Of a stretch of DNA of 64,000 bases, positions 25,151-38,411 are shown piece after piece. Source of the DNA: Sphingomonadaceae bacterium (GTDB taxonomy: Bacteria > Pseudomonadota > Alphaproteobacteria > Sphingomonadales > Sphingomonadaceae); contig JAJUHA010000004.1 of NCBI GenBank assembly GCA_029268145.1, positions 1 through 64,000 on the forward strand, written 5' to 3'. Both the position numbers and the translations under genes were made by a program. How positions within the stretch are numbered: the stretch's first letter is position 1; each line of letters begins with the position of its first letter. The notes beneath the pieces are model-generated. The model did no database searches and was not told where the DNA came from. It saw only the letters and a program-made list of their open reading frames with translations.

Positions 25151-26124
25151 GCGTTCCATTGCTCGGCGCCAGTCTGACGGCCATTGGCCGCGAAACGCGC
25201 CTGGCGCAACATGTCGAGGCCGCGGACGAGCCGGATGGCGAGGAGGACGCCGAGGCCACGAAGGCGGGCCCCGAGGCCGCTCACCCGCGGCGAGAGCAGC
25301 AGGCGCGGCGCATGGCCGAGGCCCGACGCCATCACCAGCAGCGCGCGCAGCCGCCAGGTGGCGAGGCTGCCGCCGTCGCGCAGATGGCTGTTGAGCGCCT
25401 GGGCGGACAGCCGCTGCCAGCGCGCGCGCATGTCCGAAAGCGACGCGCGGGCCGGGTGGAAGGCGACCGCCTCGGGCGCGAACAGCGGTGGCCGGCCAAG
25501 CCTTGTCGCGCGCTGGCCGAAATCCTTGTCCTCCTGCGTGCCGATCCCGCCGAAGGGGCCGGCCGCGTCGAACAGCGCCCGGGTGATGAACAGGTTGCCG
25601 GTGCCGGTGAATCCCTCGCGGGCGATGTAGCGGTCCATCCGGTAGGCGAAGACCGCCTCGAACGCCTCCAGCCCCGTCATCCGCGTCGGGTCTGCGCAAT
25701 CGATCCGGACATCGCCGCCGACATGGCCCGAGGGCGCGCGGTCCAGCTCGGCGAGCCCGGCGCGCAGCCAGCCGGGGTCGGCCCGCATGTCGGCGTCGAT
25801 GAAGGCCAGCCGGTCGGCGCGCGCCGCTGCAACCCCCATGTTCCGCGCCGGCCCGGGACCCCGCGTGGCGCAGTGCAGAAAGCGCACCCCGGGCCAGCGC
25901 GCCTGCACCCGGTCGAGCGGCACGCTCGAGCCATTGTCCACCACGATGACTTCGAAGGCGCCGCCGGGAAGATCCTGACGGGCAAGCGACTCGAGCAGCC
26001 GGTCGAGCTGGTCGGGCGTGTTGAGATGGGGCACGATGACGCTGGCCACCGGCGCGCCCGCGTCCGGCTCCGCCACGGGTCCGGTGCCGTTCGAGGCCAC
26101 GGGCGGCGCCGGGGCAAGCGGCAT
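25147..26124 (-). CDS. family 2 glycosyltransferase
   Basis: The protein has 325 residues. N-terminal ASVIVPHLNTPDQLDRLLES is followed by FEVIVVDNGSSVPLD and GPGPARNMGVAAARADRLAF. The metal-binding FIDADMRADPGWL has DAD, and the acceptor-side GGIGTQEDKDFGQR contains an ED motif. A C-terminal amphipathic helix may attach it to the membrane. It presumably adds one sugar of the EPS repeat on undecaprenyl pyrophosphate. The start (26124) overlaps the AAA gene stop by one base (TGATG), and the end overlaps the next transferase, so three genes are translationally coupled. Confidence 0.9.
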   Translation of the reverse strand: MPLAPAPPVASNGTGPVAEPDAGAPVASVIVPHLNTPDQLDRLLESLARQDLPGGAFEVIVVDNGSSVPLDRVQARWPGVRFLHCATRGPGPARNMGVAAARADRLAFIDADMRADPGWLRAGLAELDRAPSGHVGGDVRIDCADPTRMTGLEAFEAVFAYRMDRYIAREGFTGTGNLFITRALFDAAGPFGGIGTQEDKDFGQRATRLGRPPLFAPEAVAFHPARASLSDMRARWQRLSAQALNSHLRDGGSLATWRLRALLVMASGLGHAPRLLLSPRVSGLGARLRGLGVLLAIRLVRGLDMLRQARFAANGRQTGAEQWNA

Positions 26125-27533
26125 CAGGAGGTGCCCCGCGCCAGCGCCGCCGAAAGGGTCAGCAGCTGGGCCAGACCCTGGGTGCGGAACCTGTAGCGCC
26201 GCTCGTGGCCGCCACCGGCCGCCTCGGGGGCATCCTCGGCCTGCACCTCGAACAGGTCGGCATCGCGGGCGAGCGCGTCGAGACGGGCCGCCACGGCACG
26301 CGCGTCGCCCAAGTCGCGGGCATCGCCGCTGCGGAGCAGGCCGACCAGATCCTCGGCGGCGAACCAGCCCTCGGGCGTGCCCGAGGCCTTGGCGGCCGCG
26401 ATGAGGAGCGGCATCTCGGCCCGGACATCGGCGCGGGCGAGCGTGCGCTGGACCCGGGCGGGAAGCCCCGCGCTCCACTCGCCGAGCACGGCCTCGGTTC
26501 CGGCGACGACGTCGGTCGTGCCCACCTCCGGGCGCCGGTCGTCGAGCGCGCGCAGCGCCGCCCGCGAGCCGATGAGGCGCACCAGATAGGGCGAGCCCGC
26601 CGCCATCCGCACGACCAGCGCGCGCGCCTCGGGTGCGAAGACGAGCCCGGTGGCCGCCTCGGCCCGCTCGAGGATGGTCGCCATGTCCTCCTCGGCCATC
26701 GGGCCGACGCCGAGCCCGACGATGTTCCGGCGGATGGACGGCGTGAAGCCGACCAGCTCGTCGAGGTTCGAGGCAACGCCCGTGAGCACCAGCTGCACCC
26801 GCGCGGCCCGATCGGACAGATTCTTGATGAGCTCGGCCACGTCGCGCCGGAACGCCGGGTCGCGCACCCGGTCATACTCGTCGAGGATGAGGATGACGCG
26901 GGTGCCGACGATCCTGGCGAACAGCTCGGCGAGTTCCCGCGGGTCGAGCGGGCCGGCGCCCACCAGCTCGGCGAAGCTGCGCTGGTGCTCGCGCTCGTCG
27001 GCCACCGGCGAGACGTCGGCGTGGTAGAGCAGGGGAATCTGCGCTGCGAAGGCACGGAACATGTCGTCGAAGCTCGCCTCGACTCCGCACGAACCGTAGA
27101 GGACGAGATAGCGGGCCTCGCGGGCGGTCTCGGCGAAGACATGGGCAAGGCTGGTCTTGCCGATCCCGCGCTCGCCATAGAGGACGACATGGGCCCGCTG
27201 CTGCTCGATCGCCGCGATGAGGTCGGCGAGCACGTCGCTGCGCCCGGCGAACCGGTCGCGGCTGGTGACCGGCTGCGACGCCGCGAGCGCGTCGGCCAGC
27301 GCGAGCCGTGCCCGCTCGGGGTGGACCCGCCCGGAAAGGGGCCGGACGTCGGCGATCTCCTCGGTCGCGGCAACCGAGAAGCGCGGCAGCCGGCTGACCG
27401 TTGCCGAGGGCTCGGGATCGCCGCCGGTCAGCCGCCGAAGCGACCGCCGGGCGAGGCCGCCGAGGCCCTCGGGCCGACCGGTCGCACCCGGATCCTCCCC
27501 TCCCTGCCGGTCCCGCGACACGCCTACGTCCAT
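26124..27533 (-). CDS. AAA-type ATPase of the EPS locus
   Basis: The protein has about 469 residues. Walker A is GERGIGKTS (residues about 120-128) and Walker B is VILILDEYDR (about 213-222). A sensor-like LVLTGVASNLDEL follows, then a C-terminal helical region. The N-terminal ~90 residues are Arg/Pro-rich. It resembles STAND/AAA_16-type or ExeA-like ATPases; the PEP-CTERM loci of other bacteria often carry an ExeA-like 'PrsE-type' ATPase, but I cannot equate the two. It is first in the minus-strand unit with two glycosyltransferases and divergent from epsL. The start at 27533 is likely but not certain. A role in regulating or powering assembly is inference. Confidence 0.78.
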   Translation of the reverse strand: MDVGVSRDRQGGEDPGATGRPEGLGGLARRSLRRLTGGDPEPSATVSRLPRFSVAATEEIADVRPLSGRVHPERARLALADALAASQPVTSRDRFAGRSDVLADLIAAIEQQRAHVVLYGERGIGKTSLAHVFAETAREARYLVLYGSCGVEASFDDMFRAFAAQIPLLYHADVSPVADEREHQRSFAELVGAGPLDPRELAELFARIVGTRVILILDEYDRVRDPAFRRDVAELIKNLSDRAARVQLVLTGVASNLDELVGFTPSIRRNIVGLGVGPMAEEDMATILERAEAATGLVFAPEARALVVRMAAGSPYLVRLIGSRAALRALDDRRPEVGTTDVVAGTEAVLGEWSAGLPARVQRTLARADVRAEMPLLIAAAKASGTPEGWFAAEDLVGLLRSGDARDLGDARAVAARLDALARDADLFEVQAEDAPEAAGGGHERRYRFRTQGLAQLLTLSAALARGTS

Positions 27534-27654
27534 CCTCCAGCCGTCCTTTCTTCCCCTAGCGACAATCGGGCCCGAACTCAAAGCCATGTGGAATGCCCGG
27601 AAACGGTCGCGGCAGCGGCGCCTGTCATGTTGCCCTCTCACGGTCCAGCACCAA

Positions 27655-33047: not shown

Positions 33048-33938
33048 ATGCAGGTGGCAATGTCTCGGGTGGATGACGGGCTCAGGGGCTTCGCGGTTCG
33101 CAATCCCGTCCTGCTGCTCGGCCTTCTTGCCGTCGGCATCCCAACCCTTGTCGCCGTCGCCACGCAGAGCTGGACCCGCGAGGAAGGAGTCCACGGCCCG
33201 ATCGTGCTCGCCACCGGGTTCTGGCTCATCTGGCGCCGCGCCGACGAGATCCGTCGCGAGGCCATGCCCGGAAATTTCTGGGTTGCCCTGCTTGGCGTTC
33301 TCGTCGCGTCCGCGATCTATGTCTTCGGCAGGGCCTTCGGTTTCCTCATCTTCGAGGTGGGGGCGCTCTACCTCGCCGGGGTCGCGATCGCCTACAGCCT
33401 CATCGGCTGGCGGATGCTGCGCAGGCTGTGGTTTCCCATCCTCTACCTCGGCTTTGCCGTGCCGCTGCCGGGCTGGCTCCTCGATTCGATCACGCTGCCG
33501 CTCAAGTACCTGGTGTCCGACATCGTCACGCGCCTGCTCCAGGCGGTCGGCTATCCGATCGTCCAGGTCGGGGTGACGCTCTACATCGCCCAGTATCAGC
33601 TCCTGGTCGAGGATGCCTGCGCCGGCCTCAACTCGATCATCAGCCTGACCGCCATCGGGCTCTTCTACATCTACCTGTTCCACAATGCCTCGTGGCGCTA
33701 TGCGCTGCTCCTCGTGGCGCTGGTGCTGCCGATCGCGATCGCCGCGAACGTGATCCGGGTCATCATCCTCGTCCTCATCACCTATTATCTCGGCGACGAG
33801 ATGGCCCAGGGCTATCTCCACGACACTGCGGGAATCGTCACCTTCGTCTCCGCCCTTCTCCTCATCTTCCTGATCGACGGTCTCCTGACCCCGGTCCGGC
33901 GCCTTCTTGCGAGGTCCTCCCATGCTTCGGCGTCGTGA
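33048..33938 (+). CDS. xrtV: exosortase V
   Basis: This 296-residue multi-pass membrane protein has the exosortase catalytic triad: Cys191 in VEDACAGLNSI, Arg237 in ANVIRVI and His258 in GYLHDTAG. Exosortases cleave C-terminal PEP-CTERM signals and probably transfer the protein onward for surface display. The V type in sphingomonads goes with EpsI of V-type and PEPxxWA-CTERM substrates, both present here. Two starts are possible (33048, 33060). It follows epsG by 49 bp and overlaps epsI by 17 bp. Confidence 0.92.
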   Translation: MQVAMSRVDDGLRGFAVRNPVLLLGLLAVGIPTLVAVATQSWTREEGVHGPIVLATGFWLIWRRADEIRREAMPGNFWVALLGVLVASAIYVFGRAFGFLIFEVGALYLAGVAIAYSLIGWRMLRRLWFPILYLGFAVPLPGWLLDSITLPLKYLVSDIVTRLLQAVGYPIVQVGVTLYIAQYQLLVEDACAGLNSIISLTAIGLFYIYLFHNASWRYALLLVALVLPIAIAANVIRVIILVLITYYLGDEMAQGYLHDTAGIVTFVSALLLIFLIDGLLTPVRRLLARSSHASAS

Positions 33939-34623
33939 CCTGGTGTTCGGCTTGCCGCTGGTCGCTGCGGCAGGCGCGGCCTGGGCCCTGAAGCCCCGCA
34001 ACCGCATGAACCTTCTCGGCAACAGCCGCCTCGAGGACGCGATCCCCGAGCGGATCGGCCCGTGGCAGGTGACGCCGTCCAATGCCTTCATCCTCCCCGA
34101 GGCGCGGGAGGGCAGCCTTGCGGCCACCCTCTACGACCAGCAGCTCTCGCGCCTCTACACGGGCGAGGGCGTCATCCCGGTCATGCTCGTCATCGCCTAT
34201 GGCAGCACCCAGAGCGATCTTCTCCAGCTCCATCGGCCCGAGGTCTGCTACCGCGCGGTCGGCTTCTCGATCGACCGTTTCGACCGGGTCGAGGTTCCGG
34301 TGGGGGGCGGCGTGGTGCCCATGCGGGCCCTCACCGCGCGCGCCAACGAGCGCACCGAGCCCATCCTCTACTGGACCCGCCTCGGCGACCTGTTGCCGAC
34401 CAGCAACAACGAGCAGCGAATCATGAAGCTCCGGACCGAGATGGCCGGCTACATTGCCGACGGCGTGCTGGTCCGCCTGTCGACGGTGGCCGAGCCGACA
34501 CCGGACGTGTTCGCCGCCCTCGAGGCATTTGCCCGCGCGCTCCTCACGTCGATGTCCGGCGTTGCGCTCGAGGCGCTGGTCGGCCGGCCGACCGCGCGCG
34601 CGATCGAGAGCCGGGCGGCATGA
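33922..34623 (+). CDS. epsI: exosortase-associated protein EpsI, V-type
   Basis: The protein has 233 residues with a Tat/Sec-like signal (MLRRRDLVFGLPLVAAAGAAWA) and then the EpsI/DUF3485 domain. The domain contains the characteristic periplasmic HRPEVCYRAVGFSIDRF motif with its Cys and the downstream ILYWTRLGDLLP. In many exosortases EpsI is fused to the enzyme; here it is a separate gene overlapping xrtV by 17 bp. The proposed role is as an assembly or acceptor partner of the sorting reaction. The start at 33922 has GAGG upstream; a TTG at 33907 is less likely. Confidence 0.9.
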   Translation: MLRRRDLVFGLPLVAAAGAAWALKPRNRMNLLGNSRLEDAIPERIGPWQVTPSNAFILPEAREGSLAATLYDQQLSRLYTGEGVIPVMLVIAYGSTQSDLLQLHRPEVCYRAVGFSIDRFDRVEVPVGGGVVPMRALTARANERTEPILYWTRLGDLLPTSNNEQRIMKLRTEMAGYIADGVLVRLSTVAEPTPDVFAALEAFARALLTSMSGVALEALVGRPTARAIESRAA

Positions 34624-36621: not shown

Positions 36622-36646
36622 CGGCTGTCAAAAAATCTTACAGCCG
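36622..36646. promoter_or_regulatory. dyad element upstream of the first PEP-CTERM sigma-54 promoter
   Basis: This is a 25-bp dyad with perfect 7-bp arms CGGCTGT / ACAGCCG around an AT-rich centre. Its 17-bp core TGTCAAAAAATCTTACA (36626-36642) recurs as TGTCAAATAAACTTACA at 37560-37576 before the second PEP-CTERM gene. Core-to-promoter distance is nearly identical (80 and 81 bp from core start to the -24 GG). It is a good candidate for the site of a sigma-54-dependent activator. Confidence 0.75.
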
Positions 36647-36703
36647 TCCGCGGGGCCGGAGAATGTGTCAGAGCCGATTCAAGGGGTTGCGGACGTTTCG
36701 AGT

Positions 36704-36720
36704 TTGGCACGATTCTTGCA
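36704..36720 (+). promoter_or_regulatory. sigma-54 promoter of PEPxxWA-CTERM gene 1
   Basis: TTGGCACGATTCTTGCA matches the RpoN consensus TGGCACG-N4-TTGCW exactly, with GG at 36706-36707 and GC at 36718-36719. The predicted transcription start is near 36731, giving a ~39-nt leader to the ATG at 36770, with GGAGGA as ribosome-binding site. Sigma-54 control of PEP-CTERM substrates, with a PrsK/PrsR-type activator, is known from other exosortase systems. No such regulator is encoded in this window. Confidence 0.87.
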
Positions 36721-36769
36721 TAGCCTCTATCAGGTGCGGGCATGCCCGCCAGGATTGGAGGAACGGTTC

Positions 36770-37468
36770 ATGATGAAGTCGCTCACCCGATTGGTCCTTG
36801 CCGGCGCCACCCTTGCCCTTGCAGCGTCTGCGGTTCCTGCCTCGGCGGTCACCACCTTCCGGCAGTTCCAGCAGGCCGATCCATTCGACGAGGTGTTCGT
36901 CTACACGCCGGGGGCGACCAGCACCTTCACCGGGACATACACCCTCGGCCTGTCCACGCCGCGCTTTGGCGTGCCGCCGATCTTCTTCCCCGTGACGGTG
37001 ACGATCGACGCGTCGACCACCGATCCGCTGATGGTCATGACCCCGACCACCTCGGCGCAGACCGGCTGGACGGGCACGATCACGCTGACCACCACCGATC
37101 CGCTCGTGCCTGGTGGCAATCTGCTGACCGTCACCTTCGCTGGCGGGGTCGCCCAGTTCGAGAATGACGGCACGGGCAACTGGTCGGCTGCGCTGGCGCT
37201 TGCCGCGCCGAGCGTCCCGGCGGCTCCCGGCGGGGCCTTCATCGCCTACCTGACCGACTATCTCCCGCAGGACTGGATCGAGCTTTCGAACCAGAACAAC
37301 TTTGCGCTGAGCTTCTCGGGTGGCAACAGCATCGATGGCCCCTATGCCGCAACCGGCACCTTCGCGGCGGTCGTCCCCGAGCCGGCCACCTGGGCGATGC
37401 TGATCGCCGGCTTCGGCCTCGTCGGCTACGCGGCCCGTCGCCGTCGGGTGGTCGCATCGGTCGCCTGA
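36770..37468 (+). CDS. PEPxxWA-CTERM sorting-domain protein 1
   Basis: The 232-residue protein has an N-terminal Sec signal ending SAVPASA and a beta-rich, Thr/Gly-rich middle. The C-terminal sorting signal is PEPATWAM at 203-210, then hydrophobic LIAGFGLVGYAA and RRRR. The middle has LSTPRFGVPPIFFPVTV, GNLLTVTFAGGVAQFENDGTG and a repeated TTTDPL phrase. It is a predicted substrate of exosortase V encoded 3 kb upstream, ending at the cell surface or in the EPS. Its paralog at 37713 is about three quarters identical by eye. The ATG 36770 precedes a second ATG; the first has the better-spaced site. Confidence 0.93.
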   Translation: MMKSLTRLVLAGATLALAASAVPASAVTTFRQFQQADPFDEVFVYTPGATSTFTGTYTLGLSTPRFGVPPIFFPVTVTIDASTTDPLMVMTPTTSAQTGWTGTITLTTTDPLVPGGNLLTVTFAGGVAQFENDGTGNWSAALALAAPSVPAAPGGAFIAYLTDYLPQDWIELSNQNNFALSFSGGNSIDGPYAATGTFAAVVPEPATWAMLIAGFGLVGYAARRRRVVASVA

Positions 37469-37493
37469 TCTATTCTCATCCCTTTTCGTCCGG

Positions 37494-37537
37494 GGCGCCG
37501 GGCTCCACCTTGACGTGGAGCCCGGCGCCTGCGTTTT
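37494..37537 (+). terminator. intrinsic terminator after PEP-CTERM gene 1
   Basis: A 15-bp perfect stem (37494-37508 with 37515-37529) with a 6-nt CTTGAC loop is followed by TGCGTTTT. It stands 25 bp after the gene-1 stop, so the second PEP-CTERM gene needs its own promoter, which is present at 37639. Confidence 0.87.
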
Positions 37538-37559
37538 GGCAGAAGCCCTGCCGTGCCGC

Positions 37560-37576
37560 TGTCAAATAAACTTACA
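37560..37576. promoter_or_regulatory. conserved upstream element of the second PEP-CTERM gene
   Basis: TGTCAAATAAACTTACA differs from the element at 36626-36642 at two of 17 positions. The outer arms are less symmetric than in the first copy (CGC...CGCC). It starts 81 bp before the -24 GG, the same helical register as copy 1 within one base. Predicted activator-binding site. Confidence 0.73.
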
Positions 37577-37638
37577 CGCCGGGGAATGTGACGGTTTCGG
37601 GTCATAGGAAAATCAATGACTTGGCGTTCCTGATCGAG

Positions 37639-37655
37639 TTGGCACGGTTCTTGCA
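37639..37655 (+). promoter_or_regulatory. sigma-54 promoter of PEPxxWA-CTERM gene 2
   Basis: TTGGCACGGTTCTTGCA is identical to the gene-1 promoter except for one spacer base, with GG at 37641-37642 and GC at 37653-37654. The predicted start is near 37666, giving a ~47-nt leader to the ATG at 37713, with AAGAGGAG before it. Confidence 0.87.
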
Positions 37656-37712
37656 GCCCGTTGGGCAAGGGTCGGTCTGGGTTCCGACCCGTGAGCCCAA
37701 GAGGAGTCATCC

Positions 37713-38411
37713 ATGTCGCGTTTCCTGAAGTTCGGGGTTGCTGCAGCCGCGTTCGCGGGCGTGCTCGCCGCGCCGGCCGCCGCCGTGACCACCTTCCGCC
37801 AGTTCCAGCAGTCGAACCCGTTCGTCGAGAATTTCGCCTACACCAACGCGGCAACGAGCACCTTCGTTGGCAGCTATGATCTTGCGCTGTCGACGCCGCG
37901 CTTCGGGGTTCCGCCGATCTTCTTCCCGGTGACGGTCACGATCAACGCGTCCACCACCGACCCGCTGATGATGATGAACCCGACCACCTTCGGTCAGACC
38001 GGCTGGTCCGGCACCATCACCGTCACGACCACCGATCCGGTGGTGCCCGGTGGCAACCTTCTCACCGTCACCTTCTCCGGCGCGGTCGCCCAGTTCGAGA
38101 ACGACGGCACCGGCAACTGGGCCGCGGCGCTTGCACTTGCGGCGCCGAACGTTCCGGTCAACCCGGGCGATCCGTTCATCACCTACCTCACCAGCTACCT
38201 GCCGCAGGCGTGGGTGAACATCTCCAACCAGAACAACTTCGCCGTCAGCTTCTCGGGCGGGAGCGACATCGAGGGGCCCTATGCGGCCACCGGGACCTTC
38301 GCGGCCGTGAACATCGTGCCCGAGCCGGCGACCTGGGCGATGCTCATCGCCGGCTTCGGCCTCGTCGGCTTCGCGGCGCGTCGCCGGCGCACGGTTGCCA
38401 CGATCGCCTGA
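37713..38411 (+). CDS. PEPxxWA-CTERM sorting-domain protein 2
   Basis: This 232-residue paralog of the preceding protein has the same layout and near-identical central blocks (VTTFRQFQQ, LSTPRFGVPPIFFPVTV, GNLLTVTFSGAVAQFENDGTG). It has a signal peptide ending APAAA, and the C-terminal signal is PEPATWAMLIAGFG then hydrophobic residues and RRRR. It should be processed by the same exosortase. Duplication including the regulatory region is evident because promoters and upstream elements are also conserved. The function of the mature protein is unknown. Confidence 0.93.
   Translation: MSRFLKFGVAAAAFAGVLAAPAAAVTTFRQFQQSNPFVENFAYTNAATSTFVGSYDLALSTPRFGVPPIFFPVTVTINASTTDPLMMMNPTTFGQTGWSGTITVTTTDPVVPGGNLLTVTFSGAVAQFENDGTGNWAAALALAAPNVPVNPGDPFITYLTSYLPQAWVNISNQNNFAVSFSGGSDIEGPYAATGTFAAVNIVPEPATWAMLIAGFGLVGFAARRRRTVATIA

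Follow-up and report, generated by a model that had tools for sequence, protein, structure and literature searches.

Each of the two tandem PEPxxWA-CTERM genes in the window (the whole 64-kb stretch of DNA that was analysed) is preceded by its own promoter, in which a putative box for the activator PrsR, an IHF-like site and a sigma-54 site follow one another, and the distance from box to promoter, here and in PrsR-encoding relatives, is close to a whole number of helical turns. On the sequence evidence, we consider it probable (roughly 85%) that a pathway from PrsK to PrsR, acting through the box and an IHF bend, leads to sigma-54 activation of each of these exosortase V substrate genes. The promoter kind itself has been known since 2006 as a computed motif, and the PrsR/sigma-54 reading is not new.

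Two promoters with the same elements

Gene 1 (36770-37468) and gene 2 (37713-38411), both on the forward strand, encode proteins of 232 aa each, and their description as PEPxxWA-CTERM genes in the initial annotation is borne out by the C-terminal domain (NF035944, 54.7 and 53.6 bits, respectively, cut-off 35). They lie downstream of the forward-strand genes for exosortase V (XrtV; 33048-33938; NF035943, 383.3 bits, cut-off 313), the presumed sorting enzyme for the two substrates, and for a V-type EpsI, an exosortase-associated protein (33907-34623; NF045608, 257.8 bits, cut-off 228). Both of these adjoin EPS genes in the window. The tested parts of an exosortase V sorting system are present: XrtV, V-type EpsI and PEPxxWA-CTERM substrates, 45 of them in the genome. 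A gene for an AAA ATPase (AAA_16; 26124-27641, reverse strand) is divergent from the EPS/exosortase gene cluster.

The sigma-54 sites, which follow the pattern TTGGCACG-N4-TTGCA, were located on the forward strand at 36704-36720 (TTGGCACGATTCTTGCA, -24 GG at 36706-36707 and -12 GC at 36718-36719) and at 37639-37655 (TTGGCACGGTTCTTGCA, -24 GG at 37641-37642), and exact matches to TGGCACGNNNNTTGC occur in the 64-kb window at these two sites only. Upstream of them on the same strand are the two copies of the 17-bp element, both of the form TGT-N11-ACA: putative PrsR box 1 (TGTCAAAAAATCTTACA, 36626-36642), the counterpart of the published motif 1 (Haft et al., 2006; PMC1569441), and putative PrsR box 2 (TGTCAAATAAACTTACA, 37560-37576). 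The distances of 80 and 81 bp from the 17-mers to the -24 GG were reproduced, as was the 25-bp dyad formed by the first copy (36622-36646), with perfect 7-bp arms (CGGCTGT/ACAGCCG); measured from box to sigma-54 site, the spacer is 61 nt for gene 1 and 62 nt for gene 2. Both boxes end in CTTACA, one base off the published TTTACA, the consensus in other genera being TGTCGG-N5-TTTACA. No third place in the 64 kb comes within 3 mismatches of the 17-mers (chance mean 0.01), and pairs of TGT-N11-ACA with a -24/-12 sigma-54 site number just two in the window, one per PEPxxWA-CTERM gene. A pattern search of the window found no such pair before the EPS genes, which agrees with the earlier remark that the EPS machinery lacks a visible sigma-54 promoter, although this absence does not prove the separate regulation that had been read from it.

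The spacers are only 35-37% identical, against 79% for the two proteins, so that the elements have been retained against a drifted background of intergenic DNA that had rightly been called otherwise diverged. The two genes are tandem paralogues, however, and their promoter pair alone is therefore weak evidence; the case for a shared kind of promoter rests on genome-wide and cross-genome data, not on the window pair.

Spacing in whole helical turns

In the 25 PrsR-encoding genomes that gave matches, the distance from the box centre to the -24 GG deviates by no more than 2.5 bp from a multiple of the 10.5-bp turn in 129 of 129 pairs, where 61 would be expected. The classes of 5, 6, 7, 8, 9 and 10 turns hold 10, 29, 59, 17, 9 and 5 pairs, respectively, with both window genes in the 7-turn class, and a scan of periods from 6 to 20 bp over offsets 57-87 gave 10.5 bp as the best fit. 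Relatives share ancestry and are not independent samples, but the phasing survives when a single random site is taken per genome (vector length R 0.83; 99.9% point of the null, 0.52). A phylum-wide control outside the family was unphased (56 matches, R 0.087, p 0.66), and among seven hold-out promoters, taken from named genomes that had been obtained with another aim, 7/7 were in phase and 7/7 stood before PEP-CTERM genes. We found no earlier description of whole-turn spacing for the PrsR/sigma-54 system, and it appears to be new: the 2006 study gives the spacing as a mean and standard deviation only and mentions neither IHF nor helical phase (Haft et al., 2006; PMC1569441).

A phased IHF-like site between box and promoter

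Each spacer of the window holds an IHF-like site on the forward strand, 51 bp from the box start: ATTCAAGGGGTTG at 36677-36689, with 8/9 positions of WATCAANNNNTTR, and AATCAATGACTTG at 37611-37623, with 9/9. These two are the only matches of at least 8 positions on either strand of the 64 kb. Of 72 promoters, most of them from this genus, 35 show a site with 7/9 or more positions matched at a set distance from the box start, 50-52 bp for the forward and 38-40 bp for the reverse orientation, as compared with a mean of 1.2 and a maximum of 5 for shuffled spacers. About half of the promoters are without a good match at the fixed position. In the hold-out set the reverse site was found as predicted, at 38-39 bp, in 5/7 promoters. 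A fixed distance from box to IHF-like site as a general rule had to be given up: it is true in this genus, but more distant families have the IHF-like site one turn farther out as well, and among 34 promoters of other genera and families the reverse site often lies at 47-50 bp from the box start and 31-32 bp from the promoter. The site is for this reason better described as helically phased than as standing at a fixed distance. Such an IHF-like site between box and promoter, itself phased, appears to be new as a sequence feature, and a literature search on PEP-CTERM with integration host factor yielded nothing on PEP-CTERM promoters, judged by title.

The arrangement of enhancer, IHF-assisted looping and sigma-54 site is also that of NifA- and Pu-type promoters, looping between enhancer and promoter with the help of IHF being standard at sigma-54 promoters (PMC7057263), whereas the spacing here is quantised in whole helical turns in dozens of promoters and many genomes. 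The same precedent bears on the question of whether IHF is the protein concerned. An intrinsic bend, or a site for some other DNA-bending protein, would leave the phasing real and IHF uninvolved, and would fit with the good match wanting in about half of the promoters and with a test that used the consensus only; we regard it as unlikely in view of the usual place of IHF between enhancer and promoter, the agreement with all nine consensus positions at 37611-37623, the restriction of matches of at least 8 to the two spacers, and the occurrence of both orientations at fixed positions.

Regulators and precedent

The genome (2.66 Mb, 82 contigs), whose relatives by sequence would belong mainly to the Sphingomonadales, was searched for the regulators. 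The PrsK and PrsR homologs that the initial annotation had advised locating are both encoded above curated cut-offs, PrsR with 656 bits (TIGR02915, cut-off 502.6) and PrsK with 519 bits (TIGR02916, cut-off 300), their genes adjoining each other on one contig (C61), and there is one RpoN (396 bits, cut-off 277). Two PrsR-like boxes 22 bp apart lie before prsK (L113:3933-3971 on C61; also L172 and L176), in this genome and two others of the five genus members, and no sigma-54 site was found at these tandem boxes; the two boxes upstream of prsK suggest that it may be autoregulated.

The motif pair was reported before 99 of 167 proteobacterial PEP-CTERM genes, with a 17-nt motif 1 ending in TTTACA, a motif 2 that is the sigma-54 site, and a spacer of 62.8 +/- 10.6 nt between them, and PrsR, together with the kinase PrsK, was proposed as the cognate activator (Haft et al., 2006; PMC1569441). 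The window promoters agree with every feature of that description that was tested, namely motif 1, spacer, motif 2, gene and PrsR/PrsK, and the two systems share the 17-nt motif, the spacer of about 62 nt, the -24/-12 site, the PEP-CTERM gene and PrsK-PrsR; they differ in that the exosortase is here XrtV and the substrates are PEPxxWA-CTERM proteins. This match in motif length, spacer and gene type lends good support, by sequence comparison, to the earlier proposal of an activator-binding site with PrsR-like activation. Another likeness is found in Aquincola tertiaricarbonis, a betaproteobacterial host, unlike the present organism. In its strain RN12, transcription of pepA is RpoN-dependent from a mapped -24/-12 start (TGGCAC/CTGCTT) with a predicted upstream enhancer, as here, and the passages available from that work contain no test of an activator or of IHF (PMC9850573).

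The box could in principle serve another sigma-54 activator of the NtrC-like kind instead of PrsR. Five further activator-like proteins of the genome match the PrsR model, all below cut-off, and one relative (G021) has three in-phase, genuine-looking promoters before PEP-CTERM genes (L309, L310 and L311) and no PrsR at E <= 1e-120. We nonetheless hold this to be improbable, since the sites stand almost only before PEP-CTERM genes, since a published phylogenetic profile ties PrsR to motif 1 (PMC1569441), and since 24 of the 29 PrsR-encoding relatives have pairs, with phased offsets (R 0.78), as against relatives lacking PrsR, in which phasing is not significant (24 matches, p 0.13). In the other five PrsR-encoding relatives the strict pattern gave no pair at offsets 57-87.

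The regulon in this genome and its relatives

Above cut-off, the 2.66-Mb genome encodes 45 PEPxxWA-CTERM genes, and the pair of box and sigma-54 site was found upstream of 14 of them. The core that the initial annotation expected to recur before other PEPxxWA-CTERM genes is thus present here, and in many relatives too; it is missing from the other 31 of 45, and so cannot be taken as the general arrangement among exosortase V substrates. Exact pairs (TGT-N11-ACA with TGGCA-N6-TTGC at a box-to-promoter offset of 57-118, a pattern that overlooks weaker sites) number 15 in the genome, 13 before PEPxxWA-CTERM genes, one before the gene for a small membrane protein and one in a promoter relic. The promoter is highly specific to substrates, yet most substrates (31/45) are controlled otherwise. 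Chance is taken to account for box-like matches that fall within coding regions on C32 and C15, as well as for a poor match at C16:34879. In 40 relatives, the pair search returned 108 matches at offsets 57-87, compared with 4 for a reversed-pattern control, and 45 more at offsets 88-118. Recent tandem duplication with no shared regulator, which would account for adjacent genes with 79% identical proteins that also stand in tandem in other genus members, is refuted as the sole source of the likeness of the two promoters by these genome-wide data and has next to no probability left, given that the three elements persist in spacers fallen to 35-37% identity, that elements of the same kind precede 12 other PEPxxWA-CTERM genes of the genome and that relatives show the same elements.

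A proposed course of activation

The sequence establishes which DNA elements are there, that they are conserved and phased, and that genes for PrsK, PrsR, RpoN and XrtV are present; from this we infer the binding of PrsR to the box and of IHF to the spacer, as well as the steps of activation. Each gene would have its own PrsR-activated sigma-54 promoter. Upon a signal, the sensor kinase PrsK would phosphorylate PrsR, which would sit on the dyad box (TGTCRR...TTTKACA), and the IHF bend in the spacer would bring the AAA+ domain of PrsR to the sigma-54 RNA polymerase at -24/-12. The contact between PrsR and the polymerase would open the promoter, the mRNA of the exosortase V substrate would be made, and the secreted protein translated from it would have its PEPxxWA-CTERM tail handled by exosortase V, whose gene lies just upstream. 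With a distance of only about 53-105 bp between them and an IHF bend as the joint, box and promoter would have to lie on one face of the helix, and this requirement would lead to spacing in whole turns.

Members beyond the substrates

The regulon also takes in a conserved single-pass membrane protein of 56-62 aa, lacking a sorting signal, a membership that on sequence grounds appears to be new. Its gene has a box of the TGTCGG...TTTACA type and a sigma-54 site at offset 69-70 in 5/5 genus members, and scans of its variants gave no Pfam or NCBIfam match. The copy of this genome, of 56 aa and without a sorting signal, is found on C25 (L124:1166-1467) with the pair at offset 70; the gene ahead of it, recognised by eye, we take to be truA. 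In five other genera a different small membrane protein, of 77-88 aa, has the pair at offset 59-61 (L303, L304, L305, L306 and L308); it is without a sorting signal, and scans of its variants gave no family match.

At C8:8275-8349 (L114:776-850) an intact pair of box and sigma-54 site, at offset 59, has no gene downstream. A PrsR-dependent small RNA, made from this orphan promoter and a conserved downstream hairpin, was considered and dropped. The promoter is best read as the probable relic of a deleted PEP-CTERM substrate gene, because the equivalent spot in the relative G002 is occupied by a PEP-CTERM gene behind an equally spaced promoter, and in G000 and G003 the last codons of this gene, GTTTCGGCC, are still beside the promoter.

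Significance

What appears to be new here is the quantitative architecture of a known promoter kind, the geometry of which had been given only as a mean with standard deviation. Whole-turn spacing with a phased IHF-like site leads to the prediction that insertions of half a turn would kill the promoter and insertions of a whole turn would not. More tentatively, and at somewhat less than even odds, the PrsR box, the IHF site and the -24 element set in whole turns may form a three-part helical grammar from which the regulon could be defined from DNA alone, including the small membrane proteins of 56-62 and 77-88 aa as unrecognised parts of the exosortase/PEP-CTERM system. The phase rule offers a cleaner way to list all PrsR targets, proteins that are not substrates among them, and these non-substrate targets may fill gaps in the exosortase system, which is as yet poorly understood.
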